Source: Bacillota bacterium
GTDB taxonomy: Bacteria; Bacillota; Clostridia; Peptostreptococcales; Anaerovoracaceae
DNA length: 60,244 nt
Direction: 5' to 3'
Assembly: GCA_017431785.1 (NCBI GenBank)
Contig: JAFRKJ010000045.1
Coordinates: 1-60,244, forward strand
Part shown: piece by piece, positions 9,787 through 43,479 of the stretch
How the letters are laid out: each line of letters begins with the position of its first letter
Position numbering within the stretch: position 1 is the first letter of the stretch
Program-made: the position numbers and the translations under genes
Notes under the pieces: generated by a model
Databases searched by the model: none
Told to the model about the DNA's origin: nothing
What the model saw: only the letters and a program-made list of their open reading frames with translations

Positions 9787-11300
9787 TATTCCTCTCCGTT
9801 TTCTTCCCGAATCTTTGCGAGAGCCTTCATGGCTATTTCATGGGCGTCGTCCGGTGCGCCGGCAGGGTCGCCTTTTCTGAGCTTGCCGGTGAAATCGGTT
9901 CTGCTTCCGTCAGCCCAGAAGATATTTACCTTCATAGCACTTGTCACAAGGGCAAATACAGGATTGATCAGGTTCATGAAGCAGAACGGCAGGTAGGCCA
10001 GGGTGCTGACGCCAAGGATGTTGGAGTGATAAGCACCGCAGGATGACCATGGGACGAGCGGTGACCAGAGCGTGCCGCCGTCTTCCATCGTTCTGGAGAG
10101 CATGTTTCTTCCAAGACCCATTTCATCATACTTATCCTTGTACATGGCAGCAGGGATGATCAGTCCCAGATATTGATCGCACATTGTGGTAATACAGAAC
10201 ATGCCGGTAATGATTGTAACGAGGACCAGCTGGAAGACTGTTCTGACTTTGTGGATCAGGCCGCCGAGGATCGATTCGACCGCGCGGATCGTCTGTAGGA
10301 TTCCGCCGAAGCCGACGGCGATGATAACAAGGTTATTGGTCCAAAGCATGCTGTCCATACCTCCCTTGTTGAGCAGACTGTCGCAGAGCTCATTGCCTGT
10401 TTCAGCTTCGTATCCATAATGCCACATAGTAATCAGGTCAGAGAAGTTTGCATGCTGGAATATGACAGCGAAAACTCCACCGAGACCGGAAAGAAGCAGG
10501 ATACCCGGAAGGGCAGGTACTTTCAGAATCGCGACAACGAAGATTGCGATGAATGGAATCAGCAGCACTGGATGCATGAAATCATAGTGTTCTACGATTG
10601 CGTTGGACAGTCCATTTGCGACTTCAGGATCATAATCGCCGGTAGCCTTGATGCTGATGATAGCATACAGAATGATTGCGATGCATAGTGAAGGCAAGGT
10701 TGTCGTCATCATAGCACGGACATGGTCGAACAGACCGGTCTGCGCAGTACCTGCAGCGAGATTCGTCGAGTCTGACAGCGGTGAAAGCTTATCTCCGGTG
10801 CATGCGCCGGAGAGGATCATACCTGCAACCAATGCAGGATTCAGACCCATCGTTGCGCCAATTGACATGAATGCGATGCCAAGGGTGGCAGTGACTGTCC
10901 AGGCAGAGCCCAGGGCAATGCCTACGATAGAACAGAGAATGCATGCGAGGGGCAGGAACATTCCGGGCGCAATGATTTTGAGACCGTAATATACAACAGC
11001 CGGAATGGCGCCGCTCCATTCGAAGGATCCGATGAGGCATCCGACACATAGAATGATAATGATCGCCTCAAGGGACTGGCTGACAGCGGAGAGAGCTCCG
11101 GCCAGCATTTCTTTGTAAGTGAATCCGTATACTCTGCCGACGATCATTGCGACTACGCAGGCAATGAGCACGGGAATGTGTGGATCCTGACCCCATCCCA
11201 GTACATAGTTTGTAATCATGATTACAAGAAGCACCAGAATCGGGAGGATTGCCGGGATTTTGCCGGGCATGCGCCCGGACGACATTTTTGGTTCTGACAT
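9786..11300 (-). CDS. lysW: NhaC-family transporter, predicted lysine transporter
   Basis: 504 residues from the ATG at 11300, which has a strong AGGAGG site; the frame runs open to 11450 but the extra part lies in the riboswitch leader. About 11-12 transmembrane helices; the motif G-A-C-T-G-D-K-L-S-P-L-S-D-S-T and the later E-D-G-G-T-L-W-S-P-L-V-P-W are typical of the NhaC antiporter family. NhaC-like proteins under lysine riboswitches have been proposed as lysine transporters (LysW), and the riboswitch at 11450-11638 places this one there. The symbol is inferred from that context. Confidence 0.85.
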   Translation of the reverse strand: MSEPKMSSGRMPGKIPAILPILVLLVIMITNYVLGWGQDPHIPVLIACVVAMIVGRVYGFTYKEMLAGALSAVSQSLEAIIIILCVGCLIGSFEWSGAIPAVVYYGLKIIAPGMFLPLACILCSIVGIALGSAWTVTATLGIAFMSIGATMGLNPALVAGMILSGACTGDKLSPLSDSTNLAAGTAQTGLFDHVRAMMTTTLPSLCIAIILYAIISIKATGDYDPEVANGLSNAIVEHYDFMHPVLLIPFIAIFVVAILKVPALPGILLLSGLGGVFAVIFQHANFSDLITMWHYGYEAETGNELCDSLLNKGGMDSMLWTNNLVIIAVGFGGILQTIRAVESILGGLIHKVRTVFQLVLVTIITGMFCITTMCDQYLGLIIPAAMYKDKYDEMGLGRNMLSRTMEDGGTLWSPLVPWSSCGAYHSNILGVSTLAYLPFCFMNLINPVFALVTSAMKVNIFWADGSRTDFTGKLRKGDPAGAPDDAHEIAMKALAKIREENGEE

Positions 11301-11353
11301 TTTTAACCTCCTATCGTCAAATGAAAAATAACGTATTGAGATAAGAGAACTAA

Positions 11354-11383
11354 AAAAGCGGCTGTTCCGAAGCAGCCGCTTGA
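11354..11383 (-). terminator. Attenuator terminator of the lysine riboswitch
   Basis: On the minus strand AAGCGGCTG / CAGCCGCTT forms a 9-base stem followed by TTTTTT. It sits between the riboswitch and the ribosome binding site of the transporter gene, as expected for the expression platform: lysine binding should favour this terminator. Confidence 0.85.
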
Positions 11384-11449
11384 TAATCCCAACCAAAAAG
11401 GAGTGCCTGATACGCATTATAACATGCAACACCCATTTTGATTTTATCA

Positions 11450-11638
11450 AGGATAGCGCTCCGCAAATTATTGTAGTCTCCGTTTTCGGATCTTTCTTTG
11501 CGACAGTCGGACAAATCTTATTTCATCCGCCCAGCAGGATCCCCTATGCAGGTGAGATCCGCTTCGGCGCCTGTCCCTTTCACCGCATCTGTTCTGCACA
11601 ACGCTGTGTGCGGTTACTGATGACAAAACGCATCCTCT
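11450..11638 (-). ncRNA. Lysine riboswitch (L-box)
   Basis: The minus strand carries the conserved L-box elements in order: AGAGG-TGCG, TCA-CAGTAAC, GAAAGGG-AGGCGCCGAAG, a CTGG segment and ACTGTC. The P1 helix closes between AGGAT-GCG and CGC-ATCCT. The aptamer senses lysine; with the downstream terminator hairpin it should shut off the transporter operon when lysine is plentiful. Confidence 0.93.
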
Positions 11639-11654
11639 ATCTCAATGAGCAGAT

Positions 11655-29464: not shown

Positions 29465-29478
29465 AGATATAAGCAATA

Positions 29479-29514
29479 GGCCGGATTTGCGGATGCCTGC
29501 AAGTCCGGCTTTTT
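29479..29514 (+). terminator. Intrinsic terminator
   Basis: Stem GCCGGA-TTTGC / GCAAG-TCCGGC, then TTTTT. Its outer part resembles the repeated family (GCCGG) but the inner part differs. Confidence 0.88.
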
Positions 29515-29602
29515 GATTGCAGTATTTGCATTAGAATATTTCAATAATTAATCATGAAAATGGTAAATAATTGACAAGTCAGCATGCAAGGTTATGTTAT
29601 AA

Positions 29603-29635: not shown

Positions 29636-31402
29636 ATGAAACGGCTTAAAAGAGGAATTATTTTAGAAGTTATCATACTGTTTGCATGCGGCACACTCAT
29701 GATTGGTGTGTTTACTTACTTTACACAGCAGGTGCTCACGGACGCCAGCGTAAAAGGCCAGACTGAGAAAATGGCATCCAATATGGCAGATGAAACGATT
29801 GCAGCAATAAAAGAGTATCCTTCTTACCGGTGGTTGATCAGATACTGGAGAGATCATGCGGAAGAGATGGATGTTGAATATGATGCCGATTACAATGCCG
29901 GCACGGAGACAGAGAAAAAGTTTGAACTGCTCTGCGAGCGCCACCCTGATTTGAAACCGAAGTATGCAGATACGGAAGAAATCGAAGCTCTTCCTCCAGA
30001 GGATCAGAAACTGTTTGCGGAGGTCACCTATTCATGGCTAATTACAAGAGTCGACCAAATCAAGAGTGCGAATGAAATCGCATTTCTGTTTGGTGTCCTG
30101 GCAAGTAACAACTACAGGGAACAGTTCTTCCTCTTCAGCGGGGCTGATCCGGGCTCTGAACGAGGTACTGAATACGGACAGGTTTATACCCTCGGTGTGA
30201 CATCAGAGGTATCAAGAGGGCAGATAGAAGGTATGCGTCAGGCGCATAGAACGAACAGGCAGCTTGTGGATGCAGGTGATTATGTCGATTATTACGTATA
30301 TGTCGAAACAATCGATAATCAGGATCTGATGATCGGACTGACCTATGACCTGTCGGAGCTCAATGAAAGGATCAGCAGAAGTACATGGAATGGAACCGTC
30401 CTTGCCATGATTCTTGAGCTGCTTTTGGCATGGGTATTCCTGGGGATGATATATCGTGTTGTCCTGCAGCCTCTGAAGACGATACAGGAGAACATACGGC
30501 TTTATATGGACAGAAAGGACAGCGACGAGGTTTGCAGAAACCTTGCGGAGATCAAATCCGCCAATGAAATTGGACAGCTTTCCGCAGATGTCTGCAATAT
30601 GACCATCGAAATCGATGAACATATGGATCACATTAGAGAGATTACCGGCGAACAGGAGAGAATCAAAGCAGAGCTATCTCTAGCAAGTAATATCCAATCA
30701 TCCATGCTGCCAACGATATTTCCTGCATTTCCGGAAAAGGCGGAGTTTGATGTCTTTGCAACTATGGATCCAGCAAAGGATGTCGGCGGAGATTTCTACA
30801 ACTTCTTCCTCATCGATGATGATCATCTTTGTCTGCTGATTGCTGATGTGGCCGGCAAAGGCATCCCAGGTGCGATGTTTATGATGGCGACACAGATTAT
30901 GCTCAGGAACAACGGCTCAGAGTGTACATCTCCATCAGAAATCCTGGAAAAGACGAACGAAAGAATCTGTGCCAATAATCCTGAGGATATGTTTGTAACC
31001 ATATGGCTGGGTGTTCTGGAGATTTCAACAGGGAAACTGACCGCTGCAAATGCGGGACATGAATACCCTGCAATCTGTAAGAAAGACGGTATCTTTGAGC
31101 TTTATAAAGATAAACACGGTATGGTAGTCGGCGCCTTTGAAGGACTGAAGTACAAAGACTATGAGATTCAGATGGAACCAGGCGACAGAATATTCGTTTA
31201 TACAGATGGTGTAGTTGAAGCAACAAATGAGGATAATCAACTTTTCGGTACAGACCGTATGATCGAGGCATTGAATGAGAACGCAGATGCACCGTCAGAA
31301 GTTCTGGCGAACGTCAGAAAGTCTGTAGACGAATTCATCGGACAGGCGGAGCAGTTTGATGATTTAACGATGCTGTGTCTGGAATACAAAGGTTCAAAAT
31401 AG
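29636..31402 (+). CDS. Membrane sensor SpoIIE/RsbU-type PPM phosphatase 1
   Basis: 588 residues. Helix 1 at about 8-30, an extracytoplasmic sensing region of about 220 residues, helix 2 at about 257-280, a HAMP-like linker, then a SpoIIE-type PP2C phosphatase domain from about 345 (V-G-G-D-F-Y, I-A-D-V-A-G-K-G-I-P-G-A, and F-D-D-L-T-M near the end). Such enzymes remove phosphate from the serine of STAS anti-sigma-antagonist proteins. Two STAS proteins are encoded further along the same operon, so they are the likely substrates. First gene of the operon. Confidence 0.92.
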   Translation: MKRLKRGIILEVIILFACGTLMIGVFTYFTQQVLTDASVKGQTEKMASNMADETIAAIKEYPSYRWLIRYWRDHAEEMDVEYDADYNAGTETEKKFELLCERHPDLKPKYADTEEIEALPPEDQKLFAEVTYSWLITRVDQIKSANEIAFLFGVLASNNYREQFFLFSGADPGSERGTEYGQVYTLGVTSEVSRGQIEGMRQAHRTNRQLVDAGDYVDYYVYVETIDNQDLMIGLTYDLSELNERISRSTWNGTVLAMILELLLAWVFLGMIYRVVLQPLKTIQENIRLYMDRKDSDEVCRNLAEIKSANEIGQLSADVCNMTIEIDEHMDHIREITGEQERIKAELSLASNIQSSMLPTIFPAFPEKAEFDVFATMDPAKDVGGDFYNFFLIDDDHLCLLIADVAGKGIPGAMFMMATQIMLRNNGSECTSPSEILEKTNERICANNPEDMFVTIWLGVLEISTGKLTAANAGHEYPAICKKDGIFELYKDKHGMVVGAFEGLKYKDYEIQMEPGDRIFVYTDGVVEATNEDNQLFGTDRMIEALNENADAPSEVLANVRKSVDEFIGQAEQFDDLTMLCLEYKGSK

Positions 31403-31438
31403 TAAGGGTGTGCGCAGCACAGAAAGGATGTATGAGCC

Positions 31439-31918
31439 ATGCTTAGATATAGAATCTGCGGTCCGAGAGACTGCAGTGTATGGGTGGAGCTCAACAGAGC
31501 TTTCATGAGAGAAGAAATCAACGACAATGAGTTCTGGAACGAAGCAGATAAACTGACCTTGCAGGAGTTCAGAGATCTGTTCATGGAAGGCCTTGAGGCG
31601 AGTGAACAGGTGAAGTTTCTGCTGTTTGAAGAAGATGAGGAACCGATTGGCTTCGCGAATCTGATGATTTCATTCAGCGTATGGTCCCACGGGAAAGCGA
31701 TGTTCATCGATGACCTCTACTTCAAATCAGGCGAACGCGGCAGAGGAAACGGTAAGGAAGCTATGCATATGATTGAGGAATATGCCAGAGAACTGGGATG
31801 TAAGCGCATCCAGCTTCATACGGAACACTCGAACACTGATGCCATCGAGTTCTATAAAGCAATCGGATATATGTTGGCAGACGTGAAATTCTGCGTCAAA
31901 TATCTGGAGGAAGAATGA
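31439..31918 (+). CDS. GNAT acetyltransferase in the SpoIIE operon
   Basis: 159 residues. The GNAT motif A reads E-R-G-R-G-N-G-K-E-A-M near residue 99, with H-S-N-T-D-A and F-Y-K-A-I-G-Y following; it resembles the aminoglycoside 6'-type branch. It sits between the two phosphatases, 36 bases after the first and overlapping the second (ATGA), so it belongs to the operon. Whether it modifies a signalling partner or a small molecule is open. Confidence 0.85.
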   Translation: MLRYRICGPRDCSVWVELNRAFMREEINDNEFWNEADKLTLQEFRDLFMEGLEASEQVKFLLFEEDEEPIGFANLMISFSVWSHGKAMFIDDLYFKSGERGRGNGKEAMHMIEEYARELGCKRIQLHTEHSNTDAIEFYKAIGYMLADVKFCVKYLEEE

Positions 31919-33672
31919 TAAAGAAAACTGCTGACCTGAAGAACAAACAGAAACGTATTCGACATTCGCTGAATATCAAGACGTTTCTGATTATGATTGC
32001 ACTTGTTCTCGGAATGGGCGGAACCGTCTTAGTTGCGGGCTTTTTTCTGTACCTTGTCGGTATGGTCAACCAGTTTTATGTTACCACTTGGAATCAGGCA
32101 AATTCAGAGGCAGCCGTACTGGAACAGCAGAATTACTATGATAAATCGATGGAAGTAATCGATATCTATAACAGCATTCCTGAGGAGAAAAGAGGAGACG
32201 GAACATCGGAAGAGTATCATGCCCATTTCACGCCGGTGCTCGATGATACGTTCAGAACCCTTCAGAAAGCACAGAGAGACTTGAAAGACCGGAACGGCCC
32301 GATGAATTCCTTTATCGTTGCAATCGACAGTGTGAACTGCAAGATGATATACATCTGCGATTCTGACCCGAATGAGGAAACATTCTGTTATCCGGGAACA
32401 TGGGAAGAATATCCGCAGGATCAAATCGACGCACTGATCAATGGAAGGGAATTAGGCTATTTCGACAAAGTGATAGATGCCACACAAAAGGTACAGTCCG
32501 TCATCACAAATCAGCCGAAGTTTGGTCTTCGCTGTACGGGAGGAGCGACGTTGTTCGAGACGGATCAATATACAGTGATGGTTTGTGTGGATGAAAAGCT
32601 GAGTCCGATGGCGATGGCCAGTCAGGTCTTTCTGACCCATTATGTTCTGTTGCTTTTGTTCGTAAGCGTGATCACAGCTCTGATCGGGACCTTCATTGTG
32701 GGGAGAAAGATCGTCAGACCGATCAACAAGATGGCAAAGGCGGCAAGAACCTACAGTGAAAATAAATACACCGGCAATGAGAGATACTTCAAAGATCTGA
32801 AGATCCATACCAGAGATGAGATCGAAAACCTTGCAGTCACCCTTGAGGATATGGAGAGTGATCTGGCAGAATATGTCGATAATATGAAGCACATTACCGC
32901 ACAGGAAGAACGGATCAATACAGAGCTGAATCTTGCGGCCAGAATCCAGGAGAGCATGCTCCCACGAGAGTTTCCTGCTTTTCCGGAGCGCAATGAATTT
33001 GATGTTTACGCCGAGATGAAAGCCGCCAGAGAGGTTGGAGGCGACTTCTATGATTTCTTCCTGGTTGATGATGATCACCTGGCACTCGTCGTCGGAGACG
33101 TATCAGGAAAAGGAATGCCCGCGGCACTGTTCATGACTGCATCGAAGATCATGCTTAAGATGAAGGGGCAGGAAGGTGTGTCACCCGCAGAAATGCTGGA
33201 GGATGTCAATGAAAGAATATGCGCCAATAATTCAGAGGAAGTATTCGTCACAGTCTGGGTTGGAATTCTGGAAATCTCGACCGGCAAAATCATTGCGGCA
33301 AATGCAGGACATGAGTATCCTGTCATCTTGCACAATAGCGGAAAAGCAGAGATTATCCATGATAAACATGGATTTGTCATTGGCGGATTGCCGGGAATGA
33401 AATATAATAATTATGAGCTTCAAATCGAACCGGGAGACGGTCTTTTTGTCTACTCTGATGGTGTTCCGGAAGCGATGAATGAAACAGACGAGCTCTTCAA
33501 AACAGAAAGAATGCTTCGGGCTCTGGATGACGCGGAAAAAGATAATCCGCGCAGGATCATTGAGCAAGTTGAAAACGCTGTGAACAACTATGTTGGCGGA
33601 GCAGAGCAGTTCGATGATATTACTATGCTGTGCCTTACATACAGAGGAGTGATGAATGCGCAGGAGACTTGA
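31915..33672 (+). CDS. Membrane sensor SpoIIE/RsbU-type PPM phosphatase 2
   Basis: 585 residues. Same layout as phosphatase 1: helix at about 24-47, extracytoplasmic part of about 180 residues, second helix at about 240-262, HAMP (V-R-P-I-N-K-M-A-K-A-A), and SpoIIE phosphatase domain with V-G-G-D-F-Y-D-F, D-V-S-G-K-G-M-P-A-A and F-D-D-I-T-M. The phosphatase halves are close to each other, while the sensing parts are unrelated in sequence, so the two enzymes should feed the same STAS targets from different signals. Overlaps both neighbours. Confidence 0.92.
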   Translation: MIKKTADLKNKQKRIRHSLNIKTFLIMIALVLGMGGTVLVAGFFLYLVGMVNQFYVTTWNQANSEAAVLEQQNYYDKSMEVIDIYNSIPEEKRGDGTSEEYHAHFTPVLDDTFRTLQKAQRDLKDRNGPMNSFIVAIDSVNCKMIYICDSDPNEETFCYPGTWEEYPQDQIDALINGRELGYFDKVIDATQKVQSVITNQPKFGLRCTGGATLFETDQYTVMVCVDEKLSPMAMASQVFLTHYVLLLLFVSVITALIGTFIVGRKIVRPINKMAKAARTYSENKYTGNERYFKDLKIHTRDEIENLAVTLEDMESDLAEYVDNMKHITAQEERINTELNLAARIQESMLPREFPAFPERNEFDVYAEMKAAREVGGDFYDFFLVDDDHLALVVGDVSGKGMPAALFMTASKIMLKMKGQEGVSPAEMLEDVNERICANNSEEVFVTVWVGILEISTGKIIAANAGHEYPVILHNSGKAEIIHDKHGFVIGGLPGMKYNNYELQIEPGDGLFVYSDGVPEAMNETDELFKTERMLRALDDAEKDNPRRIIEQVENAVNNYVGGAEQFDDITMLCLTYRGVMNAQET

Positions 33673-35281
33673 TGAGTTTTCAAAACAGTATACACTAAAC
33701 GGTAAAGGAATCGACAAGCTGTCCGAGACGATCAATCAGCAGTTGGAGAAGATTGACATGGAACAGAGGAACAGACTTCGTATACGTCTGTCTTTTGAGG
33801 AATCTCTGCTGCGGATGAGAGACAGGTTCGGTGAAGATGCTAAAGTGACTCTGACGATGGGAAATTCGATCAACAGGTCTTTTATGATGATCACGATGGA
33901 AGGGGAGCTGTTCAATCCTTTGAGCAAAAGAGAGGTTGACCTCGAGGATTGGAGCGGAACACTGTTGACGGCAGTTGGTCTTTATCCACAGTACAGTTAT
34001 GAAAGAGGCAAAAATGTACTGAGGCTGAACCTTCCTGTCAGAAAAGTGAATCCGGCAATCATTCTTCTGATCGCAATCACAGCCGGCATTGTACTGGGAG
34101 TAGGCATACAGATGTTTTGTTCCGATGCGCAGATGGCTGCCATAACGGATGTTGTTCTGGAACCGCTGTATAATCTATGGATCAGAATCCTGTCAGTACT
34201 GTCGGGACCTGTCATCTTTTTCATGGTTATCACGACTGTTCTGAATACAGGCGGCATTGAGGAAGAAGGCGGAAGCAGCAGGAAAGTCATCTCCAGATAC
34301 TTTCTGCTCAGCGGTCTAGTTGGAGTGGTGGCAATCATCATATGCATGGCCATCTCCAGAACGGAAGTGGTGCTTGGGCAGACTCTGGGTGTGAGTATAT
34401 CTCAGTATTTGGATAAGTTGTTCCATATTGTGCCATCGGATGCTTTTGAACCGATTCTGAATGCGAATACACCTCAGATTCTCCTGTTTGCTTTTGTACT
34501 TGGACAGGGACTGAATATCATTGGTTCAAAGGTGGAAGGCCTTACATCAATCATCAGACAGATGAATATGGTAGGCCTGCTCATGACCGACTGGGTCAGC
34601 AGGTGCGTGCCTTACATAGCAGGAGGATTGATTTGCTATGAGATACTCTGGCATCAGACGAACCTTCTGATGCATCTTTGGATCGTACTGTTGCTTTCTC
34701 TAGCAGTTGCCTTTGTATGTATTGCAGGAGCTGTTATAATAGTATCTGTAAAGAAGCAGGTTGCTGTTCCTGTTCTTGTTAAGAAGATTCTGCCGGATTT
34801 CCTGACTGCAGTGAAGAGCGGAGGTCTGGATGAAGGATATGGTGAAACAGAAGCCGGATGCATCCACAAGCTGGGAATAGAGAGACATTACACACAGATC
34901 AGCCTGACACAGGGATTGGTACTGTATATGCCGATCAACGTAATCGGAACGCTGATTCTGACGTTTTATGCTGCAGTGCAGTTCGATGTCAGTATTTCGG
35001 TGGCTTGGCTGTTCATTGCCTGGATGCTATCCGTTGTCATGTTCGTGGCGACGCCGCCGGTTCCGGGAGCGAATTTGCTTGCATATATCATGATTTTTGA
35101 TCTGTTGGGAGTACCAGATATGGTTCTGATAGACGCGATGATTTTCGAGGTACTCTTCGGAATATTTGCATCGGCAGGAAATCAGACCATGTTGCAGATG
35201 GATATGATCATGCAGTCAGATCGGATAGGTTTGCTGGATATAGACCAGCTTAGAAAATATAGGAGGAATGATAAGAAATGA
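33656..35281 (+). CDS. HATPase-like domain fused to a dicarboxylate/amino acid:cation symporter-like protein
   Basis: 541 residues. Residues about 15-128 look like a degenerate kinase-type ATPase domain (F-E-E-S-L-L-R-M-R-D as an N-box-like helix, then strands and G-E-L-F-N-P-L). From about 134 to 520 the protein has the helix pattern of the GltP-type symporter family. The canonical N-M-D-G-T motif of that family is replaced by N-V-I-G-T at about 428-432, so coupling and substrate binding are probably altered. It overlaps the second phosphatase by 17 bases and the STAS gene by ATGA. It may be a membrane receptor rather than a transporter. Confidence 0.75.
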   Translation: MRRRLDEFSKQYTLNGKGIDKLSETINQQLEKIDMEQRNRLRIRLSFEESLLRMRDRFGEDAKVTLTMGNSINRSFMMITMEGELFNPLSKREVDLEDWSGTLLTAVGLYPQYSYERGKNVLRLNLPVRKVNPAIILLIAITAGIVLGVGIQMFCSDAQMAAITDVVLEPLYNLWIRILSVLSGPVIFFMVITTVLNTGGIEEEGGSSRKVISRYFLLSGLVGVVAIIICMAISRTEVVLGQTLGVSISQYLDKLFHIVPSDAFEPILNANTPQILLFAFVLGQGLNIIGSKVEGLTSIIRQMNMVGLLMTDWVSRCVPYIAGGLICYEILWHQTNLLMHLWIVLLLSLAVAFVCIAGAVIIVSVKKQVAVPVLVKKILPDFLTAVKSGGLDEGYGETEAGCIHKLGIERHYTQISLTQGLVLYMPINVIGTLILTFYAAVQFDVSISVAWLFIAWMLSVVMFVATPPVPGANLLAYIMIFDLLGVPDMVLIDAMIFEVLFGIFASAGNQTMLQMDMIMQSDRIGLLDIDQLRKYRRNDKK

Positions 35282-35574
35282 ATATCACGAAGAAAGCTGA
35301 AGACAAGAAGCTCACAATTGGTGTAGATGGACGTCTCGATACCATGACAGCACCTGAGCTGGATGAAGAACTGAAAGCATCCCTCGGTGGGGTTGAAGAG
35401 CTTGTTATGGATTTCTCCGACCTGGAGTACATTTCATCTGCAGGACTCCGTGTACTGCTGTCAGCGCAGAAGACGATGAACACGCAGGGAGAGATGACTG
35501 TGACAGGTGTCAACGATGTAATCATGGAGATCTTTGAAGTAACCGGATTCAGCGATATTCTCACCATTAAATAA
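35278..35574 (+). CDS. STAS-domain anti-sigma-factor antagonist
   Basis: 98 residues, a single STAS domain. The phosphorylation loop reads L-E-Y-I-S-S-A-G-L-R, so Ser54 is the expected phospho-acceptor (matching SpoIIAA Ser58). Unphosphorylated protein normally binds the anti-sigma kinase; the SpoIIE-type phosphatases encoded upstream would return it to that state. Overlaps the symporter-like gene by ATGA and is followed 20 bases on by the triple-domain gene. Confidence 0.92.
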   Translation: MNITKKAEDKKLTIGVDGRLDTMTAPELDEELKASLGGVEELVMDFSDLEYISSAGLRVLLSAQKTMNTQGEMTVTGVNDVIMEIFEVTGFSDILTIK

Positions 35575-35594
35575 AACGCAAAGGAAGAATAATC

Positions 35595-37184
35595 ATGGAA
35601 GAAGTTAAGGGACGCTTGCAGGATAATACTGCAATAATCACCCTGACTGGACGTATCGATTCAAGCAATGCCGCCCAGGTTGAAGAGGAAATCTTCAGAC
35701 TTCTGTCGGATGGTGAAATCGGATCGTTGTGCATTGACATGCAGGGACTGGAGTTTATTTCAAGCTCAGGACTGCGGATTTTACTTAAGCTGCGAAAAAT
35801 CTATGGCGATTATCGTTTGACAGATGTGGGACCGGATATCTATGAAGTTTTGCATATGACCGGCTTTACAGAACTCATGACCGTCGAAAAAGCATATCGC
35901 CGCGTATCTGTGGATGGATGCGAAGTAGTCGGTGAGGGCGCAAACGGAACGGTTTACCGAATCGATGGGGACAACGTTGTAAAAGTATATAAAGATGCAA
36001 ACGCACTGGATGAGATCCAGAAAGAGCGTGAATTAGCGCGCCTTGCCCTTGTGCTGGGGATTCCAACTGCCATATCATATGATGTGGTTCGTGTTGGGGA
36101 CAGCTATGGATCTGTTTTTGAAATGCTGGATGCAAGATCTTTTTCTAAAATACTTGCAGAGCATCCTGAGAAAATGGATTGGTGTGTGAAGGAATATGTT
36201 GATTTGCTCAAGAAGATCCACAGAACTGTCGTTCCTGCCGGGAAGCTTCCGGACATGCGCCGGGTTGCTATTTCCTGGGCTGAATTCGTGCAGGATTATC
36301 TTCCGGAAGAACCGGGAAGGAAGCTGCTGCAGCTGGTTCGGGCAGTACCTAAGAGCAATCACATGCTCCATGGTGACTACCATACCAAGAATCTGGAACT
36401 CACCGGAGATGAAGTACTGCTCATCGATATGGATACACTGGCTACAGGTCATCCTGTTTTTGAGCTGGCATCCATGTTTAACGCCTTTGTCGGATTCGGG
36501 GAATACGATAACGGTCAGACCAAACGGTTCTTGGGATTTGACCGTCCGGTTGCCTTGGAATTCTGGAGAAAATCTCTGGCTGCGTATCTCGGAACAGAGG
36601 ACGAGGATCGTATTCGTGCAGTTGAGAATAAGGCACGTGTCGTAGGATATACGAGGCTGATTCGCAGGTCTATCCGCCGCGGCGGATTGGAAGATACAGA
36701 GCGGAATGCAGAAATTGAACTCTGGAAGTCAGAGCTTTTGGAACTGCTGGACAAAGTGGATGATCTTACATTCCTGCCGAATGAAATACGGGTGGAAGCG
36801 ACAAGACAGAACCTTGGTCCTGTGATGGAATTTCTATGCGCGCATTTAGAACAGGCAGGATGCTCCATGAAATCACAGACAGAACTGGAACTTGCCGTTG
36901 AAGAAATCTTCATCAATATTGCCAACTATGCATACAGCCCGGGCACAGGGGAAGCGGATATCCATATTGAGATAGAAGGTGACCCGAAACAGGCTGTCAT
37001 CACACTTCGTGATCAGGGTGTGCCGTATAATCCTTTAGAGAGGGAGGATCCGGACGTTACACTCAGCGCCGAAGAGCGCGGCATCGGCGGACTTGGAATA
37101 TTCCTGACCAGAAAGACGATGGATGAGTTGTACTATGAGTACCGTGACGGCAGTAATATCCTGACGATGAAGAAGAGAATCTAA
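35595..37184 (+). CDS. STAS - APH/kinase-like - HATPase triple fusion
   Basis: 529 residues in three parts. Residues 1-97: STAS domain with loop F-I-S-S-S-G-L (Ser57 as acceptor). About 105-370: protein-kinase/aminoglycoside-phosphotransferase fold with G-E-G-A-N-G-T-V-Y-R loop, Lys in V-V-K-V-Y, H-G-D-Y-H-T-K-N catalytic loop (about 259-266) and I-D-M-D metal site. About 395-529: HATPase of the RsbW/SpoIIAB kind with E-E-I-F-I-N-I-A-N, D-Q-G-V-P-Y and G-I-G-G-L-G-I-F. Antagonist, phosphotransferase and anti-sigma-type kinase are thus on one chain, each with intact motifs. Confidence 0.9.
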   Translation: MEEVKGRLQDNTAIITLTGRIDSSNAAQVEEEIFRLLSDGEIGSLCIDMQGLEFISSSGLRILLKLRKIYGDYRLTDVGPDIYEVLHMTGFTELMTVEKAYRRVSVDGCEVVGEGANGTVYRIDGDNVVKVYKDANALDEIQKERELARLALVLGIPTAISYDVVRVGDSYGSVFEMLDARSFSKILAEHPEKMDWCVKEYVDLLKKIHRTVVPAGKLPDMRRVAISWAEFVQDYLPEEPGRKLLQLVRAVPKSNHMLHGDYHTKNLELTGDEVLLIDMDTLATGHPVFELASMFNAFVGFGEYDNGQTKRFLGFDRPVALEFWRKSLAAYLGTEDEDRIRAVENKARVVGYTRLIRRSIRRGGLEDTERNAEIELWKSELLELLDKVDDLTFLPNEIRVEATRQNLGPVMEFLCAHLEQAGCSMKSQTELELAVEEIFINIANYAYSPGTGEADIHIEIEGDPKQAVITLRDQGVPYNPLEREDPDVTLSAEERGIGGLGIFLTRKTMDELYYEYRDGSNILTMKKRI

Positions 37185-37192
37185 AGGAGTCT

Positions 37193-37732
37193 ATGGGCGA
37201 CGAGAAACTGAGAAAATATGAACATACACTTGCTATAAGCGGCGCGGCTGTCGTCGCTTTTGGCATTTGGAGTGTAGTTAAGGCTGTCGTCTACTTTGTC
37301 GTGATTCCGCTTGCAAAGGTAGGCGCTGAGTTACGGGAAACAGGAGGCGTCGACTTTGAGTCAATCCAGTCCCTTGGAATTACAGACCGGGGACTGGGTT
37401 ATATTACGGCTATCAGCATAGTGCTGGTTCTGATGATAGACCTTCTCATGCGCTTTTATGTGGGACGGTCAGCCATTTTAGAAGGAAGAGGCAATAAAAA
37501 GGGCAGTTTCTATCTGATTATTTCAGCTGTAGTGGTTGCTTTACTCTGTATGAGTATTGTCAGAAGAGCAATTGTATGGTTCATTCCTGATGAAACGGGA
37601 ATCATGAAAGATCTAATGGATACCGCCGGAGTGTCTCAGATTCTCGATCTGACATCTCTATTTGCCTTGATTCAGGTCATCGTTTCAGCAATCATGGTCA
37701 GGCGGCTCCGTGAACAACTTGAGGTGAGCTGA
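37193..37732 (+). CDS. Four-helix membrane protein of the SpoIIE operon
   Basis: 179 residues with four transmembrane helices (about 16-38, 65-87, 101-123 and 147-167). It starts 8 bases after the triple-fusion gene and its stop overlaps the next start (TGATG). No family is recognised. Its tight coupling to the signalling genes suggests either a membrane partner or an output gene. Confidence 0.75.
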   Translation: MGDEKLRKYEHTLAISGAAVVAFGIWSVVKAVVYFVVIPLAKVGAELRETGGVDFESIQSLGITDRGLGYITAISIVLVLMIDLLMRFYVGRSAILEGRGNKKGSFYLIISAVVVALLCMSIVRRAIVWFIPDETGIMKDLMDTAGVSQILDLTSLFALIQVIVSAIMVRRLREQLEVS

Positions 37733-38841
37733 TGCAGGGAGATTTTCATTATTACGCAACATACTGCGCAGCTTTTCTCGCAGGATATACGCACGAAGAA
37801 AGTTTGGCGATTTGCTTCGGCGCGCAGTTCGTTGATTTTTGTTCTGTGACGTTTCTCAAAAAAATCAAAGGGCCTGAGACTGCTGCAACGACGCAATTAC
37901 AGGCGGAACTCATGGACTCCAGAACGGATCATGTGGGACTTCAGAAAATCACCAGAACATGGGCTTCCTTTCATTTCCTCCCAAGAGACCTCAACGTCGA
38001 AGTCAAAGGCGGCAGACGCTATCAGAATAAATATCGTCTCATATGCGGACCAAATGGGGAACTGCTGGCAGATACCGTAGAACTGGCAAAAGGAAAAGGA
38101 CTGGAAGCAGCAGGTGTCGCGATGCATGTCCTAGCGGATACGTGGGCCCACAGATATTTTGCGGGCACTCCATCACTAGTCATCAACAATACAAATTATC
38201 AATTCTACGAAATACTGGGCGAGGGTGATGATGCGGAAACCAGGCGTATTGCTTTTCGTCACAATCCAAAGGCGCTGGATGACCCGGTTGAAGGGAAGTA
38301 TACAAACAGCGTATATCAGATCAGCGAAAACAATGTCATGAATCTGGGACACGGCAGGGCAGGTCATCTTCCAGACTACAGTTTCGCACGCTATAAATAT
38401 CTTCCAGCCTGGGCTGAATACAAGGAAATCATCAAAGACAACCCATCGGATTACATGCACGCATTCTGCCAAATGGTGTATGCGTTAAGGTATCTGAGGG
38501 GGGATATTGATGCCTTTGCATTAGATACCTATGATTGGGATACTGTCGCACCCTATCGAGAAGAAATCAAGGAAATCATCGAACGGCGACAGCTGTTGGC
38601 CTCAAAAGACTGGAAAGCTCTGGGAGAAAGGTTGTCTGGCTGCACGATTGAAGCTTTTGATATCAAAAAGTATCAGCAGGAATATGTTGACGCAGAAAAT
38701 AATGAGAAAAACCAGACTTATCTGGGCAGGTTTATCACAGCGGCGCTGGCGCAAAAGAGCATGGTCACCAACAGTATGGCTGCCTCCAAGAACAGACTGG
38801 CAGGAGTTGGATTGGAGGTGAGATTCCGTGACAAAGGCTAG
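37732..38841 (+). CDS. DUF6765-like protein, possible metal-dependent hydrolase
   Basis: 369 residues, soluble. H-Y-Y-A-T at the N-terminus, M-H-V-L-A-D-T-W-A-H-R-Y-F near residue 130 and N-L-G-H-G-R-A-G-H-L-P-D near 205 show many conserved-looking His and Asp, a pattern like zinc-dependent phospholipase-C-type folds. It resembles the DUF6765 family of unknown function. It is coupled to both neighbours (one-base overlap upstream, 14-base overlap downstream). The family call is by pattern only. Confidence 0.65.
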   Translation: MQGDFHYYATYCAAFLAGYTHEESLAICFGAQFVDFCSVTFLKKIKGPETAATTQLQAELMDSRTDHVGLQKITRTWASFHFLPRDLNVEVKGGRRYQNKYRLICGPNGELLADTVELAKGKGLEAAGVAMHVLADTWAHRYFAGTPSLVINNTNYQFYEILGEGDDAETRRIAFRHNPKALDDPVEGKYTNSVYQISENNVMNLGHGRAGHLPDYSFARYKYLPAWAEYKEIIKDNPSDYMHAFCQMVYALRYLRGDIDAFALDTYDWDTVAPYREEIKEIIERRQLLASKDWKALGERLSGCTIEAFDIKKYQQEYVDAENNEKNQTYLGRFITAALAQKSMVTNSMAASKNRLAGVGLEVRFRDKG

Positions 38842-39358
38842 ACGCATTGGACATGTGCTGACAGGTTTGATCATGGTCATCTTCGGTACTGCTATGGCTA
38901 TTATGCCGAGTGAAGTATACGGTGTGATCATATTGAGCCTAGGCTTGACGTTGATGCTGTCGGGAATCAGATCCCTGGTCTATTATTTCACCATGGCGAA
39001 ACATATGGTTGGCGGTTTAGCTGTGCTATACCGTGGTGTTATTGTTTTTGACATTGGGCTGTTCACACTTTCTCTGGTAGATGTACCGCTTATCTTTATC
39101 ATGCTGTATTTGGCCGGACTCCATGGATTCTCCGGCTTCATCGATATCATGCGGGCAATTGAGTCCAAGAAAATGAATGCTTCATGGAAACTGAATATCA
39201 GCCACGGAATCATCAATGTGTTGATTGCTTTGTTATGCCTCGTCTTCCTGAAGACCGTATGGGTTGCCACGCTCTGCTACTCACTGGGTCTGATTTATTC
39301 AGGTATTATCCGTATCATTCAAGCCTTCCGCAGGACAACTGTCGTTTACATTCAGTAG
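38828..39358 (+). CDS. HdeD/DUF308-like membrane protein
   Basis: 176 residues from GTG 38828, preceded by GGAGGTG. About six transmembrane helices arranged in the repeated two-helix fashion of HdeD/DUF308 proteins. It is the last gene of the SpoIIE operon, ending 9 bases before the convergent asparaginase gene. HdeD relatives are linked to acid stress in enterobacteria; no role is known in Clostridia. Confidence 0.8.
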   Translation: MTKARRIGHVLTGLIMVIFGTAMAIMPSEVYGVIILSLGLTLMLSGIRSLVYYFTMAKHMVGGLAVLYRGVIVFDIGLFTLSLVDVPLIFIMLYLAGLHGFSGFIDIMRAIESKKMNASWKLNISHGIINVLIALLCLVFLKTVWVATLCYSLGLIYSGIIRIIQAFRRTTVVYIQ

Positions 39359-39367
39359 ACAGTATTT

Positions 39368-40363
39368 TCAGTAGACGCTGTCCATGGCGACAGGTGTGTA
39401 GAAACGCTGTTCGATTTCATCCCATGTCTTGCTGTTGTTTCCGAGGATCCACATGAGCTTGGCGATAATGGTCTCCAGAGTCATATCACGCGCTTCGAGG
39501 ATCTTAAAAGAATCTGCAATGCGGCGTCCGACCGCATAGGTGTTCATGTGACTTCCTTCGTAGGTGACCTGGGTGGTCATGGCAAGGATTTTTTCTTCCG
39601 GTCTATATTTCGACAGCTCAGTGAGGAGGGTGTTTTCAATTGATGCAGGAATACCGCCTGCACCGAAACTTTCAATCACGACAGCATCATAGATGCTGAA
39701 GATTTCAGGAATCAGGTCCGGGGACATGCTCGGCGTCAGTTTGAGCAGGAATACATTCGGATTGATCGAATCATAGAATTGCACACGGCCATTGGAAGGT
39801 ATGTTGAGGTACCGGATGATGTGGCCGTTATTTATTTCCGCTATTACCGGAAGGTTGATGCTCTCAAAAGCAAGAAAGCTCATTGATCTCACTTTGCGGG
39901 CATGTGTTCCGGCGATGACCTTGCCTGCAAAGACGATTTGTACACCATGAGAGAGGGAATTGGCTGCATAAAGAATACTGTCCTGCAGATTGGATTTCGC
40001 ATCTGTGATTTCAAAGCCAATCGGTTTCTGGGCGCCGGTCAGGACGATTGGCTTTTCAGAGTTCTGGATCATATATGAAAGGACAGCTGCCGTATAGGCC
40101 ATGGTGTCAGTTCCGTGGCATACAACGAAACCGTCGTAGAGATCATAATTGTCTCGGATGGCATCAATGATTCTGATCCAATGTGAGGCAGTCATGTCAG
40201 TACTGTCAATATGGAAAAGCTCCTTAATATCAATGGCGATGTCCGAACCAATCTGTGGGAGATGTTCACGGAGCTGATTGCTGCTCATTCCAGGCACGAG
40301 GCCATCCGGAGATTGCACAGAAGCAATCGTTCCTCCCGTGGTAAGTATCAAAATCTTTCTCAT
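39368..40363 (-). CDS. L-asparaginase
   Basis: 331 residues from the ATG at 40363 with AGGAGG; the frame is open a further 63 bases upstream without a ribosome site. The first catalytic motif is T-T-G-G-T-I-A-S (nucleophile Thr12), the second H-G-T-D-T-M. Type and length match cytoplasmic (type I) asparaginases, which turn asparagine into aspartate and ammonia. No signal peptide. It is near other amino-acid catabolism genes on the same strand. Confidence 0.93.
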   Translation of the reverse strand: MRKILILTTGGTIASVQSPDGLVPGMSSNQLREHLPQIGSDIAIDIKELFHIDSTDMTASHWIRIIDAIRDNYDLYDGFVVCHGTDTMAYTAAVLSYMIQNSEKPIVLTGAQKPIGFEITDAKSNLQDSILYAANSLSHGVQIVFAGKVIAGTHARKVRSMSFLAFESINLPVIAEINNGHIIRYLNIPSNGRVQFYDSINPNVFLLKLTPSMSPDLIPEIFSIYDAVVIESFGAGGIPASIENTLLTELSKYRPEEKILAMTTQVTYEGSHMNTYAVGRRIADSFKILEARDMTLETIIAKLMWILGNNSKTWDEIEQRFYTPVAMDSVY

Positions 40364-40429
40364 TGCAGTCTTCCTCCTTGCACTGATTTTAGCATAAATG
40401 ACCGCAACGGGATACGGCTGTATCAAAAC

Positions 40430-40476
40430 AAAAAGGCTCTGAAGAGAGGATTACCTCATGTTTCGGAGCCTTTTTG
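40430..40476. terminator. Bidirectional intrinsic terminator
   Basis: AAAAGGCTC-TGAA / TTTC-GGAGCCTTTTT with T/A tracts on both sides; ends the CoA-transferase gene on the minus strand. Confidence 0.8.
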
Positions 40477-40553
40477 CTTGTACTGAAGGTTTGTTTAATG
40501 AACTTATGGAACCTTATGTGCTTCTTTATCCTATGTGATGTGCTTTTTTGTAT

Positions 40554-41903
40554 TTAATCACCAACATATGGAGTGTTGAATCTCTCTTCAAATGCTTTTG
40601 ACAGCTCATCCACAACAGAAGGGTGGGCGATGCTGATGAGTGCGCGTGCACGCTCTCTTAATGTCTTGCCTTTCATCCTGGCAATTCCGTATTCTGTGAT
40701 GATATAGTCGACATCGTAACGGTTCGTTGTTACGGCTGCGCCGTTGTCAATGTACGGTACGATTTTGGAAATGACAGTTCCATCTCTCTTGACTGTGATG
40801 GACGGCATTGCGATGATGGAGATGCCTTTGCCGTCTTCAGCCCTTGAAGCACCGCGGACAAAGTCAACCTGACCGCCTACGCCGGAGAACTGCTTTGTTC
40901 CGATGGATGCGGCGACGACCTGACCCATAAAATCGACCTGCAAAGCAGAATTGATCGAGACCATCTTGTTGTTCTTCGCGATAACCGTAGGGTCGTTTAC
41001 GTAATCTACCGGCCGGAGCATCAGCATAGGATTGCGGTCTGCAAAATCATAGAGCCGCTTTGTTCCCATCAGGAAGGTGACGACGATCTGGCCTCTGTGC
41101 AGCGTTTTTTCAGAGCAGTCGATGACGCCGGCTTCCACCAGATCCAGAACGCCATCTGCAATCATTTCAGAGTGGATTCCCAGATGCTTGTGATTCTTTA
41201 ATGATGCGAGGACGGCATCCGGTATTGCGCCGATACCGAGCTGCAGAGTTGATCCATCTTCGATCAGAGACGCGCAGTACTCACCGATAGCCATTTCCAC
41301 ATCGCCGACCTTTGGAGGCTGTGATTCCATCAGCGGCATATCCATCTCTACGATGGCGTCGAGCTGGCTGACATGGATGTGTGTATCTCCGTAAGCAAAC
41401 GGCATGTTGTTGTTCACCTGCGCGATGACTGTCTTCGCAGAGCGCATGGCCTGGAAAGTATATCCCGACTCAACGCCCAGATTGCAGTATCCCCACTGGT
41501 CAGGAGGGGAGACCATCACCAGACACACATCGAAGTTGAGAATGCCTCTTCTCATCCAGATCGGAAGTTCTGAGAAGTATACCGGGATGACGTCGCCGTT
41601 CCCGTGGGCAATACTGTTTCTGGTTCCTGCTCCGAAGAAGATTCCATCAAATGTGAAGTTGTCTTTGTACTTAGGGTCTGTGTATTCGCCTTTGCCGAGG
41701 GAGACCATATGTGTGATATGAACACCGCGGTACGCGTCATGGTTTGCCACCATGGCATCGATCAGACCCGTAGGCTCACAGATGCAATGACCGAAGATGA
41801 CGTGATCGTGAGACTTGATCAGTTTTACTGCTTCTTCGGCTGTCGTTAACTTATTTTCATAGTCCTGTTTCCAGTTCATCGGGGTTACTGTTATCTCTGC
41901 CAT
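40554..41903 (-). CDS. Acyl-CoA:carboxylate CoA-transferase (acetyl-CoA hydrolase/4-hydroxybutyrate CoA-transferase family)
   Basis: 449 residues from the ATG at 41903 (AGGAGGAAGG upstream). The family's G-I-H-S-E-M motif places the likely catalytic Glu at residue 246; the G-x-G segments (G-I-G-A-I-P and F-S-G-V-G-G-Q) are present. Enzymes of this group (AbfT- or butyryl-CoA:acetate-type) pass CoA between acetate and an acyl acid during amino-acid fermentation. The exact acid cannot be read from the sequence. Confidence 0.9.
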   Translation of the reverse strand: MAEITVTPMNWKQDYENKLTTAEEAVKLIKSHDHVIFGHCICEPTGLIDAMVANHDAYRGVHITHMVSLGKGEYTDPKYKDNFTFDGIFFGAGTRNSIAHGNGDVIPVYFSELPIWMRRGILNFDVCLVMVSPPDQWGYCNLGVESGYTFQAMRSAKTVIAQVNNNMPFAYGDTHIHVSQLDAIVEMDMPLMESQPPKVGDVEMAIGEYCASLIEDGSTLQLGIGAIPDAVLASLKNHKHLGIHSEMIADGVLDLVEAGVIDCSEKTLHRGQIVVTFLMGTKRLYDFADRNPMLMLRPVDYVNDPTVIAKNNKMVSINSALQVDFMGQVVAASIGTKQFSGVGGQVDFVRGASRAEDGKGISIIAMPSITVKRDGTVISKIVPYIDNGAAVTTNRYDVDYIITEYGIARMKGKTLRERARALISIAHPSVVDELSKAFEERFNTPYVGD

Positions 41904-42025
41904 GAGTCCTTCCTCCTGCAACAGCTGCATTTTTGATCAGCACTTAAGCGGGCTGATAGGTGATTCGATTGTTGTATTTATTTTAATGCATGATTTAGTG
42001 AGATAAAGTATATGTAGCAATAAAA

Positions 42026-42063
42026 AACGGGAAAAAATGCAGATATGCATATTTTCCCGTTCA
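42026..42063 (-). terminator. Intrinsic terminator
   Basis: On the minus strand AACGGGAAAA-ATGCA pairs with TGCAT-TTTTCCCGTT around a short loop, followed by TTTTTTATT; ends the saccharopine-dehydrogenase-like gene. Confidence 0.85.
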
Positions 42064-42097
42064 GATTATGCAAAAACGAATTATCTTGCAATTTTTA

Positions 42098-43414
42098 CTA
42101 TTCAACGATTTCCCAGGTCTTCTTGATCTTTGTATCAAGAGTGATGCCCAGCTCTTCCGCATATCTGAAGTATTCATCTACCTGTTCATCAGAAAGCATG
42201 TCAGAAGAGATGACGCCGCTCTGACCTTCAAACTGATCGTTAATGAAGAGTTTTGAGAACATATATCCGCCCTGACCAGTCAGATACATCTCGCCTGTCA
42301 TCTTAGCTCTCTCGAAGGATTCGACAAAACCAGGTGCATTCACGTGGACTTCCACGAGGACGCCCTCATCATCCTTACGTCCATATGCTTCAATGACCAT
42401 ACAGCCGGAGTCAAGAGCCATACCTTCATCTACGAAGGATTTGATTTCCTCTTCGTATTTCGGAGCATGCGGCAGATGGCTGAGCACGAAGTCAAACGGT
42501 ACGATTTTCTGACCGTTGAACTCTTCCTCTTCATGACTGAGCATTCCTGCTTCATAAAGAGGTGCAGCGAAGTCCATACCGGCTCCGGCATACTTGAAGT
42601 ATGCGTTCTTACAGCCTTTGAAATGAGTATCTGCATTGAAACTGTACTGGAGAGGTTCGTCATGGCAATGTTCTCTGAAAGTAATCCTGCTTTCCATGTA
42701 CGGATACTGTCTTGTGATCGGTCTGCCGAACGCAGGAGTGTTGATCAGTTTACCGCCTTCCCAGGCCAGCGCCATTTCACTCATATCCGTAAGAGCGGTG
42801 ATAGGAGACCACCAGAATGGCTGGAAACGTTTCGCAATCGCACCTTCCCAGACAAAGTTGTAGATGGTATCGCATTTGTCGAGATAACGCATGGCGTACT
42901 TGGTCGCGGCGCAGATAAGGCCCGGTGCAGAACCGGTTCCGAATATGGCCAGTTTGCCGATTTCTTCAAACTTCGGTCCATACAGTTCAAACATAGCCCG
43001 GATGCTTCTGTACCAGTTGAGCGTGTCCGGATCCTGGAGCTCAGGTTCGTCGCCTTCCGCAATCGCCTTTTTGCCTGGCTCGCTTTCTGCCCACATATCA
43101 CCCAGTGCTGTGGTGCCAGCGTAATCCTGATAGTTTGCTTTCACGATCAGTGCGGCATCCAGAACATTCTGCGTACACTCAAGTGGCAGACCATTCAGAA
43201 TCAGGTCAACGCCTTCTGCAGCCTTCACAATGCTGTCTAAATCATGAGCGTCAACAAAAGCTCCTTTTGCTTTTGTAAGCTGTGCAACCAACGTGTCTAC
43301 CGCGGTTTGATCATAGTCAGCGCAGATGATTTCGCCGACGTCCGGTTCTGCATCCAGCTTTCTGGCAGCAGTGCTTCCCTGGGCGCCAACACCCAGAACT
43401 AGTATTTTTTTCAT
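42098..43414 (-). CDS. Saccharopine dehydrogenase-like oxidoreductase
   Basis: 438 residues from the ATG at 43414 with a GCGAGG site. The N-terminus has the dinucleotide-binding G-V-G-A-Q-G-S motif and the family's acid-rich D-A-H-D-L-D segment; the rest matches the saccharopine dehydrogenase / Lys9-like C-terminal domain. Family members act on saccharopine, carboxynorspermidine or similar; substrate here unknown. A lysine-metabolism role is suggested only loosely by the lysine-responsive operon elsewhere in the window. Confidence 0.85.
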   Translation of the reverse strand: MKKILVLGVGAQGSTAARKLDAEPDVGEIICADYDQTAVDTLVAQLTKAKGAFVDAHDLDSIVKAAEGVDLILNGLPLECTQNVLDAALIVKANYQDYAGTTALGDMWAESEPGKKAIAEGDEPELQDPDTLNWYRSIRAMFELYGPKFEEIGKLAIFGTGSAPGLICAATKYAMRYLDKCDTIYNFVWEGAIAKRFQPFWWSPITALTDMSEMALAWEGGKLINTPAFGRPITRQYPYMESRITFREHCHDEPLQYSFNADTHFKGCKNAYFKYAGAGMDFAAPLYEAGMLSHEEEEFNGQKIVPFDFVLSHLPHAPKYEEEIKSFVDEGMALDSGCMVIEAYGRKDDEGVLVEVHVNAPGFVESFERAKMTGEMYLTGQGGYMFSKLFINDQFEGQSGVISSDMLSDEQVDEYFRYAEELGITLDTKIKKTWEIVE

Positions 43415-43479
43415 ATTTTTACCTCGCAATCTTTATACTTTCATATTATCATATATTTGATAAGAGAGGTATGATTTTC

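Follow-up and report, generated by a model that had tools for sequence, protein, structure and literature searches.

A clostridial operon with the parts of a partner switch and a candidate membrane-protein output

Partner switching is usually viewed as a way of releasing sigma factors, with few side outputs known: in the known switches, the unphosphorylated STAS antagonist binds an RsbW-type kinase, and the kinase lets go of its target. Nine same-strand genes at positions 29636 to 39358 of a 60,244-nucleotide stretch of DNA (the window; contig JAFRKJ010000045.1 of assembly GCA_017431785.1, a Bacillota bacterium of the family Anaerovoracaceae) encode the parts of such a switch and no sigma factor, and the question is what this switch controls. 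The window makes up one contig of a genome of 2.7 Mb that is 81% complete. The candidate target considered here is HSDF, a protein with an N-terminal domain resembling the RsbW/SpoIIAB kinase domain and an SDF/SLC1-like membrane part, encoded next to a small STAS protein and a STAS-APH-HATPase fusion (SAH). That the operon is a partner-switching circuit with a membrane-protein output instead of a sigma factor is a reading to which we give an even chance.

The kinase-like and membrane halves of HSDF

The first 135 residues of HSDF from the window matched no Pfam family, and a profile of HSDF N-terminal domains retrieved nothing from the PDB sequences up to an E value of 1. When such domains were scanned singly, however, 16 of 43 matched HATPase_c_2 (best E value 8.5e-7), with any other family matched by at most one member. 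Comparison by hhalign of 50 HSDF N-terminal domains with 34 kinase domains yielded a probability of 95.8 and an E value of 8.1e-9 over 111 columns, whereas the control profiles of STAS, SpoIIE and APH gave probabilities of only 0.5, 0.1 and 0.2, respectively; an earlier comparison from small alignments was weak (probability 32) and was replaced by these deeper alignments with controls. The profile results argue for homology of the HSDF N-terminal domain to the RsbW/SpoIIAB kinase domain and bear out the ATPase-like N terminus that a preliminary description of the locus had attributed to a symporter-like protein. An AlphaFold model of the domain is fairly confident (predicted local distance difference test [pLDDT] 85.6, predicted template modeling score [pTM] 0.81; full-length HSDF, 80.2 and 0.75) and displays the order strand-helix-helix-strand-strand-(short helix)-strand-strand, with residues 92 to 108, the expected position of the ATP lid, among its least certain parts.

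The residues of the ATPase site have fared differently in the two groups of proteins, as assessed in one alignment that also includes RsbW-type domains fused to SpoIIE, MATE and ABC proteins. The N-box Asn, a Mg-binding residue, is present in 25 of 25 SAH kinases, 9 of 9 SpoIIE-HATPase fusions, 16 of 19 MATE and 11 of 19 ABC fusions, and in 1 of 50 HSDF proteins; the corresponding counts for the G1 Asp are 25/25, 9/9, 17/19, 0/19 and 0/50. HSDF of the window carries Arg53 in place of the N-box Asn and lacks both the G1 Asp and the G2 glycines. Among the 50 closer HSDF proteins, 47 have Arg in the N-box and none has the GGLG of G2, but the catalytic-base Glu is retained in all 50, as it is throughout the SAH, SpoIIE-HATPase, MATE and ABC sets. 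Among 24 HSDF proteins that are more distant, the G1 Asp is likewise missing (0/24), and the catalytic base is Glu in 18, with Asp in 5 more. The N-terminal domain is thus a widely conserved, probably inactive relative, with the N-box Arg typical of one large branch. Some HSDF proteins, of about 750 amino acids (L148-L151 and L048), bear an extra hydrophobic, probably multi-pass domain ahead of the HATPase-like domain.

The membrane part is homologous to the SDF/SLC1 symporters, such as GltPh and DctA: a profile of 45 HSDF sequences matched aspartate/GltPh-type transporters with E values between 1e-41 and 5e-21. HSDF differs from these symporters in its additional N-terminal domain and in that the NMD motif, D394, R397 and D405 are mostly replaced. 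Site residues, in GltPh numbering (N310, D312, D394, R397, N401 and D405), were counted across aligned SDF proteins, of which 73 were fused and 21 ordinary. Among the fused proteins, the Asp312 position is Asp in 3 (L157, L161 and L278 are among the few that keep it) and Pro in 67, and the Asn310 position is Asn in 4 and Tyr in 52. HSDF of the window reads YMP where ordinary members have NMD. Asp is found at the Asp394 position in 13 and at the Asp405 position in 2 of the 73, and Asn401 is retained in 58. The ordinary set is itself mixed, with Asp at the Asp312 position in 13 of 21 proteins and 6 of 21 differing at Asp394, Asn401 and Asp405. With its site residues replaced, HSDF was rejected as an ordinary Na+/dicarboxylate symporter.

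Recurrence with switch genes and related domains on other effectors

HSDF was detected in 13 of 61 related genomes, namely its own and 12 of the same genus, at E values of 2e-119 or better. A match to the STAS-APH(-HATPase) gene (E value 1e-100 or better) is present in all 13, in some cases split by contig ends, and in 3 of the 48 others; the Fisher p values for this co-occurrence, 8.5e-11 overall and 1.6e-7 within 37 same-genus genomes, are both made too small by kinship. One genome, G026, falls in neither class of this table, having a distant HATPase-SDF-like protein (E value 4e-4) and a kinase match at 4e-31.

When the GTDB genome collection was scanned, 50 HSDF loci came to light, mostly from rumen and gut metagenome-assembled genomes, which their submitters had labeled Clostridiales, Lachnospiraceae, Oscillospiraceae, Erysipelotrichaceae and Coriobacteriaceae. 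Of 67 HSDF loci, many of which have short flanks, 35 include a STAS, HATPase or SpoIIE gene no more than 5 kb from HSDF, versus 0 of 21 ordinary SDF loci; the 67 leave out L056, a third near-identical and linked copy, and L105, a broken gene. This control tells only that ordinary SDF genes do not neighbor STAS, SpoIIE or kinase genes. In a phylum-wide sample of 398 genomes, 9, including the genome of the window, contain HSDF matches; of 8 loci taken from phylum members outside its own family, 3 are linked to switch genes. On a quick tree of 72 HSDF rows, the linked and unlinked states interchange at least 14 times. In 24 of 26 genomes chosen because HSDF was seen there with no full STAS-APH-kinase gene next to it, a STAS-APH or kinase match with an E value of 1e-30 or better occurs somewhere in the genome. 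An order-wide search with the N-terminal domain matched 18 of 297 genomes, all within the 36 that carry a match to the switch query; these 18, which include G317 (where the match is the kinase itself) and G292 (an ABC fusion), are not the main count.

What recurs is smaller than the operon. The core consists of three genes, for HSDF, STAS and the STAS-APH-HATPase protein, and because it recurs in many genomes, the operon is more than a chance assembly. The order of the trio changes, the phosphatases, the GNAT gene and the three tail genes vary among relatives, and in some genomes (for example, G003) HSDF is on one contig and the STAS-APH-kinase gene on another. The preliminary description had presented the nine genes as a self-contained operon and proposed gene order in relatives as a check; in that comparison the three-gene core recurs, but the nine genes are not conserved together, and the nine-gene unit was abandoned as a conserved entity. 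The parts are also reshuffled: the kinase domain resides on the STAS-APH protein in the window, on SpoIIE with a separate STAS-APH protein in L083-L085, and on its own in L066, L096 and L104, and the rearranged loci keep the same set of switch parts. In L080 and L083-L085, labeled Erysipelotrichaceae or Solobacterium, a 470-residue protein (with PTS_IIB and ROK matches in the L084 copy) is encoded between HSDF and STAS.

Analysis of genomic neighborhoods in the same bacterial family showed RsbW-type domains fused to further proteins, including MATE exporters, amino-acid ABC proteins and an AMP-binding enzyme. Polar amino-acid ABC ATPases of about 367 residues carry a degenerate HATPase-like domain at the C terminus (L161:12623-13747 and L162-L191), and in one-chain versions of 914 to 1133 residues (L197, L198 and L199), a binding protein, a permease and the ABC ATPase precede that domain. 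Taken alone, the ABC-type domains match Pfam HATPase_c_2 weakly (E values 0.27 and 0.002); their assignment to the RsbW relatives is therefore based on profile comparison, both with the kinase (probability 95.0, E value 4e-8) and with HSDF (96.0, 4e-9). A profile of two such domains matched 97 of 349 genomes. The switch query was matched in 65 of 77 genomes with an ABC-type match at a cut near an E value of 5e-12 versus 88 of 272 others, although the query contains the HATPase domain and some of the 153 matches may be other fusions. An ABC cluster near HSDF, C2, was examined as a further fusion and proved to consist of ordinary ABC proteins.

MATE exporters with a C-terminal HATPase_c_2 domain (E value 7e-15 in L192) are encoded in L192, L195, L203, L255, L258, L261 and L266, and 7 of 19 MATE-fusion loci have a STAS, SpoIIE or kinase gene no farther than 5 kb away. 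The fusion in L203 additionally bears an HD-CE domain, and GNAT-type proteins recur in MATE-type switch clusters (L258:3877-4929 and L261:3620-4618), as in the operon of the window. An AMP-binding enzyme with a C-terminal degenerate HATPase-like domain (HATPase_c_2 E value 3e-4, below the cut-off) was found at L269:3445-5544, the same gene as L202:2446-4545, in one same-strand cluster with membrane acyltransferase, STAS and SpoIIE genes. A literature search for HATPase-fused transporters, judged by titles and the starts of abstracts, gave no recognizable description, which is no proof that none exists.

These fusions tentatively suggest a general non-transcriptional network in gut Clostridia and their relatives, in which RsbW-type domains would serve as plug-in STAS receptors on unrelated effectors and one circuit would directly set several transport systems. 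The effectors, as we provisionally read them, would be SLC1-like symporters, MATE exporters, polar amino-acid ABC ATPases and the AMP-binding enzyme, many of the RsbW-type domains being apparently dead ATPases; the operon of the window might then represent a compact, single-target version. If so, the kinase half of the switch has been grafted onto transporters and partner switching offers direct, fast control of nutrient traffic, with roles for several genes whose only matches are to generic SDF, MATE or ABC-ATPase families.

The proposed circuit and its alternatives

Judged from its domains and motifs, the operon qualifies as a partner-switching module, and the earlier statement that all parts of a switch are present agrees with the Pfam matches and the scanned motifs. 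Both phosphatases have the metal-site motifs of SpoIIE/RsbU-type PP2C enzymes, except that one scanned pattern is too strict for the second phosphatase (it reads REVGGDFYDFF). Their sensor halves share no significant similarity (best alignment E value 0.05, in the transmembrane/HAMP stretch), as expected from the different sensing part ascribed to the second enzyme. The small STAS protein has Ser54 within ISSAGLR (residues 52 to 58), at the position of SpoIIAA Ser58. SAH unites STAS (E value 4e-15), APH (6e-16) and HATPase_c_2 (3e-24) domains in a single protein, with the N-box, G1 and G2 of the kinase intact and the catalytic HGD and DxD motifs of APH retained. The SAH kinase domain is the one HATPase_c_2 match over the cut-off in the genome (a second, weaker match, on another contig, falls short of it); two of the three STAS domains of the genome are in the operon, and SpoIIE matches that exceed the cut-off number six, on five contigs.

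In the circuit that we propose, the two membrane phosphatases, with their different outside sensors, would dephosphorylate Ser54 of STAS, and the HATPase domain of SAH would phosphorylate it, resetting the switch. Unphosphorylated STAS would dock on the RsbW-like domain of HSDF, which is degenerate, with the ATPase residues lost but the kinase fold presumably kept, and docking would open or close the attached SLC1-like membrane domain. The observed basis of this mechanism comprises the parts, their motifs, the homology between the N-terminal and kinase domains, the recurring linkage and the co-inheritance; from these we infer who phosphorylates whom, the docking and its sign, and the transport of a substrate by HSDF. 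The preliminary description had left the output as either the symporter-like protein or a remote target. Linkage, co-inheritance and the N-terminal homology have strengthened the case for the former, and the latter is retained below as a rival.

Several observations weigh against this reading. The SDF part of HSDF has lost most of the residues with which known SLC1 proteins bind Na+ and amino acids, and it may be no transporter at all. The degeneration of the N-terminal domain is not uniform, the N-box of the 24 distant HSDF proteins holding Arg 9 times, the original Asn 4 times, Lys 3 times and another residue 8 times. Genomes inside one genus are not independent; at 32 of the 67 HSDF loci, some of them short-flanked, no switch gene was seen in the surrounding 5 kb; and the genomes of the ordinary-SDF control lack a strong SAH match, leaving SAH presence uncontrolled. 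Among the 77 genomes with ABC fusions, 12 have no match to the switch query, 4 of them at least 90% complete, and none of 19 ABC-fusion loci, several with short flanks, has a switch gene within 5 kb. Finally, terminator-like sites over the 12.4 kb scanned exceed the shuffle mean (21 versus 8.0).

The loss of the symporter residues makes the strongest rival one in which HSDF is an input rather than the output: a transporter-like solute receptor whose pseudo-kinase domain sequesters or releases STAS, forming a third input, with the output elsewhere. The replacement of the known Na+/substrate residues of SDF by other conserved ones is receptor-like, the pseudo-kinase domain could buffer STAS, and transporter-type sensors, such as CbrA, exist elsewhere. 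Two phosphatases already supply membrane sensors, however, RsbW-type domains on MATE exporters and ABC ATPases fit regulated transport better, and, with the exception of the DUF6765 group, we saw no further candidate output that recurs, so that we consider a receptor role for HSDF unlikely.

That exception leads to the next alternative, in which the target of the switch is remote (for example, the DUF6765/DUF308 tail genes, an APH substrate or a regulator of transcription), with HSDF as no more than a frequent passenger. The tail trio (MEM, DUF6765 and DUF308) adjoins STAS-SAH without HSDF in L115, DUF6765-DUF308 adjoins a STAS-kinase gene in L120, and in 3 of the 61 genomes SAH was detected but HSDF was not. 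Because it recurs near STAS or SAH even where HSDF is absent, the group may be another effector of the switch. A remote target with HSDF as a passenger is nevertheless rather improbable, given that the linkage of HSDF to switch genes recurs in other families of the phylum and that HSDF itself bears an RsbW-type domain. The group also adjoins a distant HSDF in L099, and L040 and L092 are listed for it as well; DUF6765 has no solved relative (best E value 0.12), and a literature search gave no paper on it.

Quite improbable, in our estimate, is a nucleotide or energy sensor, in which ATP or ADP bound to the N-terminal domain would gate the membrane domain without any binding of STAS. The GHKL-type ancestry of the domain and the conservation of its catalytic-base Glu speak for such a role, and Arg53 could stand in for Mg2+; yet in GHKL proteins the nucleotide is held by the G1 Asp and the G2 glycines, which the HSDF set has lost, and it would be left unexplained why HSDF is linked to, and inherited with, STAS and SpoIIE genes. 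A sigma-factor target, as in RsbU/V/W-SigB or SpoIIE/AA/AB-SigF, is the classical role of these domains, and the genome is incomplete, but it was rejected as highly improbable because Pfam places no sigma-factor gene among the nine of the operon, in agreement with the preliminary description, and no SigBFG match exceeded the cut-off in this 81%-complete genome (best 141.5 bits versus 234 required; 1 of 14 control genomes had one).

HsbD, the output of one of the closest known systems, is not known to carry an RsbW-type domain. In the RsbU-RsbV-RsbW-SigB and SpoIIE-SpoIIAA-SpoIIAB-SigF systems, for which PMC8256260 describes the roles of phosphatase, STAS antagonist and kinase, the components are those found here, namely a SpoIIE-type phosphatase, a STAS protein with a conserved Ser and an RsbW-type kinase domain; the operon departs from them in that its kinase is fused to STAS and APH, its phosphatases are two, a pseudo-kinase is placed on a membrane protein, and the genome yielded no SigB/F/G-type factor. 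HsbA of Pseudomonas aeruginosa, an anti-anti-sigma (STAS) protein that acts on the non-sigma protein HsbD according to PMC5085249, offers a precedent for a non-sigma output, which in our operon is only proposed; the output there is a diguanylate cyclase and here a protein that resembles a transporter and bears a degenerate RsbW domain. SLC26/SulP transporters, as covered in PMC8256260, also have one domain of the STAS/RsbW pair fused to a transporter, but there it is the STAS half, whereas HSDF joins a degenerate kinase half to an SLC1-like protein and STAS is separate.

Operon layout and neighboring genes

Coordinates and Pfam matches confirm the earlier account of nine packed same-strand genes with two SpoIIE-type phosphatases (Table 1): all nine are on the + strand, with overlaps of 1 to 17 bases or gaps of 8 to 36 between neighbors. 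Internal promoters or terminators had been named as grounds for doubting the operon. Promoter-like sites are not above chance in the 12.4 kb scanned (15 versus 21.4 in shuffles); terminator-like sites are in excess, and although none of those within the operon has a stem longer than 8 pairs, internal termination could occur.

Table 1. Features of the partner-switching operon and of the region just upstream, in window coordinates
Feature	Position	Strand	Evidence
Terminator-like hairpin upstream of operon	29478..29511	+	15-pair stem
Promoter-like site TTGACA-16-TATGTT upstream of operon	29571..29598	+	Consensus only
SpoIIE/RsbU-type phosphatase 1 with membrane sensor	29636..31402	+	Pfam SpoIIE E 6e-52; motifs
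GNAT acetyltransferase	31439..31918	+	Pfam Acetyltransf_1 E 6e-20
SpoIIE-type phosphatase 2, different membrane sensor and HAMP	31915..33672	+	Pfam SpoIIE E 4e-49, HAMP 9e-6
HSDF N-terminal domain, degenerate RsbW/SpoIIAB-type HATPase	33656..34060	+	hhalign, HATPase_c_2 matches of family members, AlphaFold, motifs
HSDF membrane part, SDF/SLC1-like	34061..35281	+	Pfam SDF E 4e-28 (residues 137-511), profile match, residue counts
STAS protein (RsbV/SpoIIAA-like), candidate phosphosite Ser54	35278..35574	+	Pfam STAS E 4e-15; TIGR00377 above cut-off
SAH, fusion of STAS, APH-type phosphotransferase and intact HATPase_c_2 kinase	35595..37184	+	Pfam, NCBIfam
MEM, small membrane protein (179 aa), variable tail	37193..37732	+	No family over cut-off
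DUF6765 protein, variable tail	37732..38841	+	Pfam E 7e-71
DUF308 membrane protein, variable tail	38828..39358	+	Pfam E 2e-10

The convergent genes downstream of the operon (39368-43429, - strand) resemble, as judged by eye only, asparaginase, CoA-transferase and saccharopine-dehydrogenase-like genes, which suggests amino-acid fermentation. Elsewhere in the window, a Lysine riboswitch (11446-11647, - strand; 92.5 bits) directly precedes a 554-residue transporter-like open reading frame (9786-11450, - strand) that by eye resembles an NhaC-type antiporter or lysine transporter.

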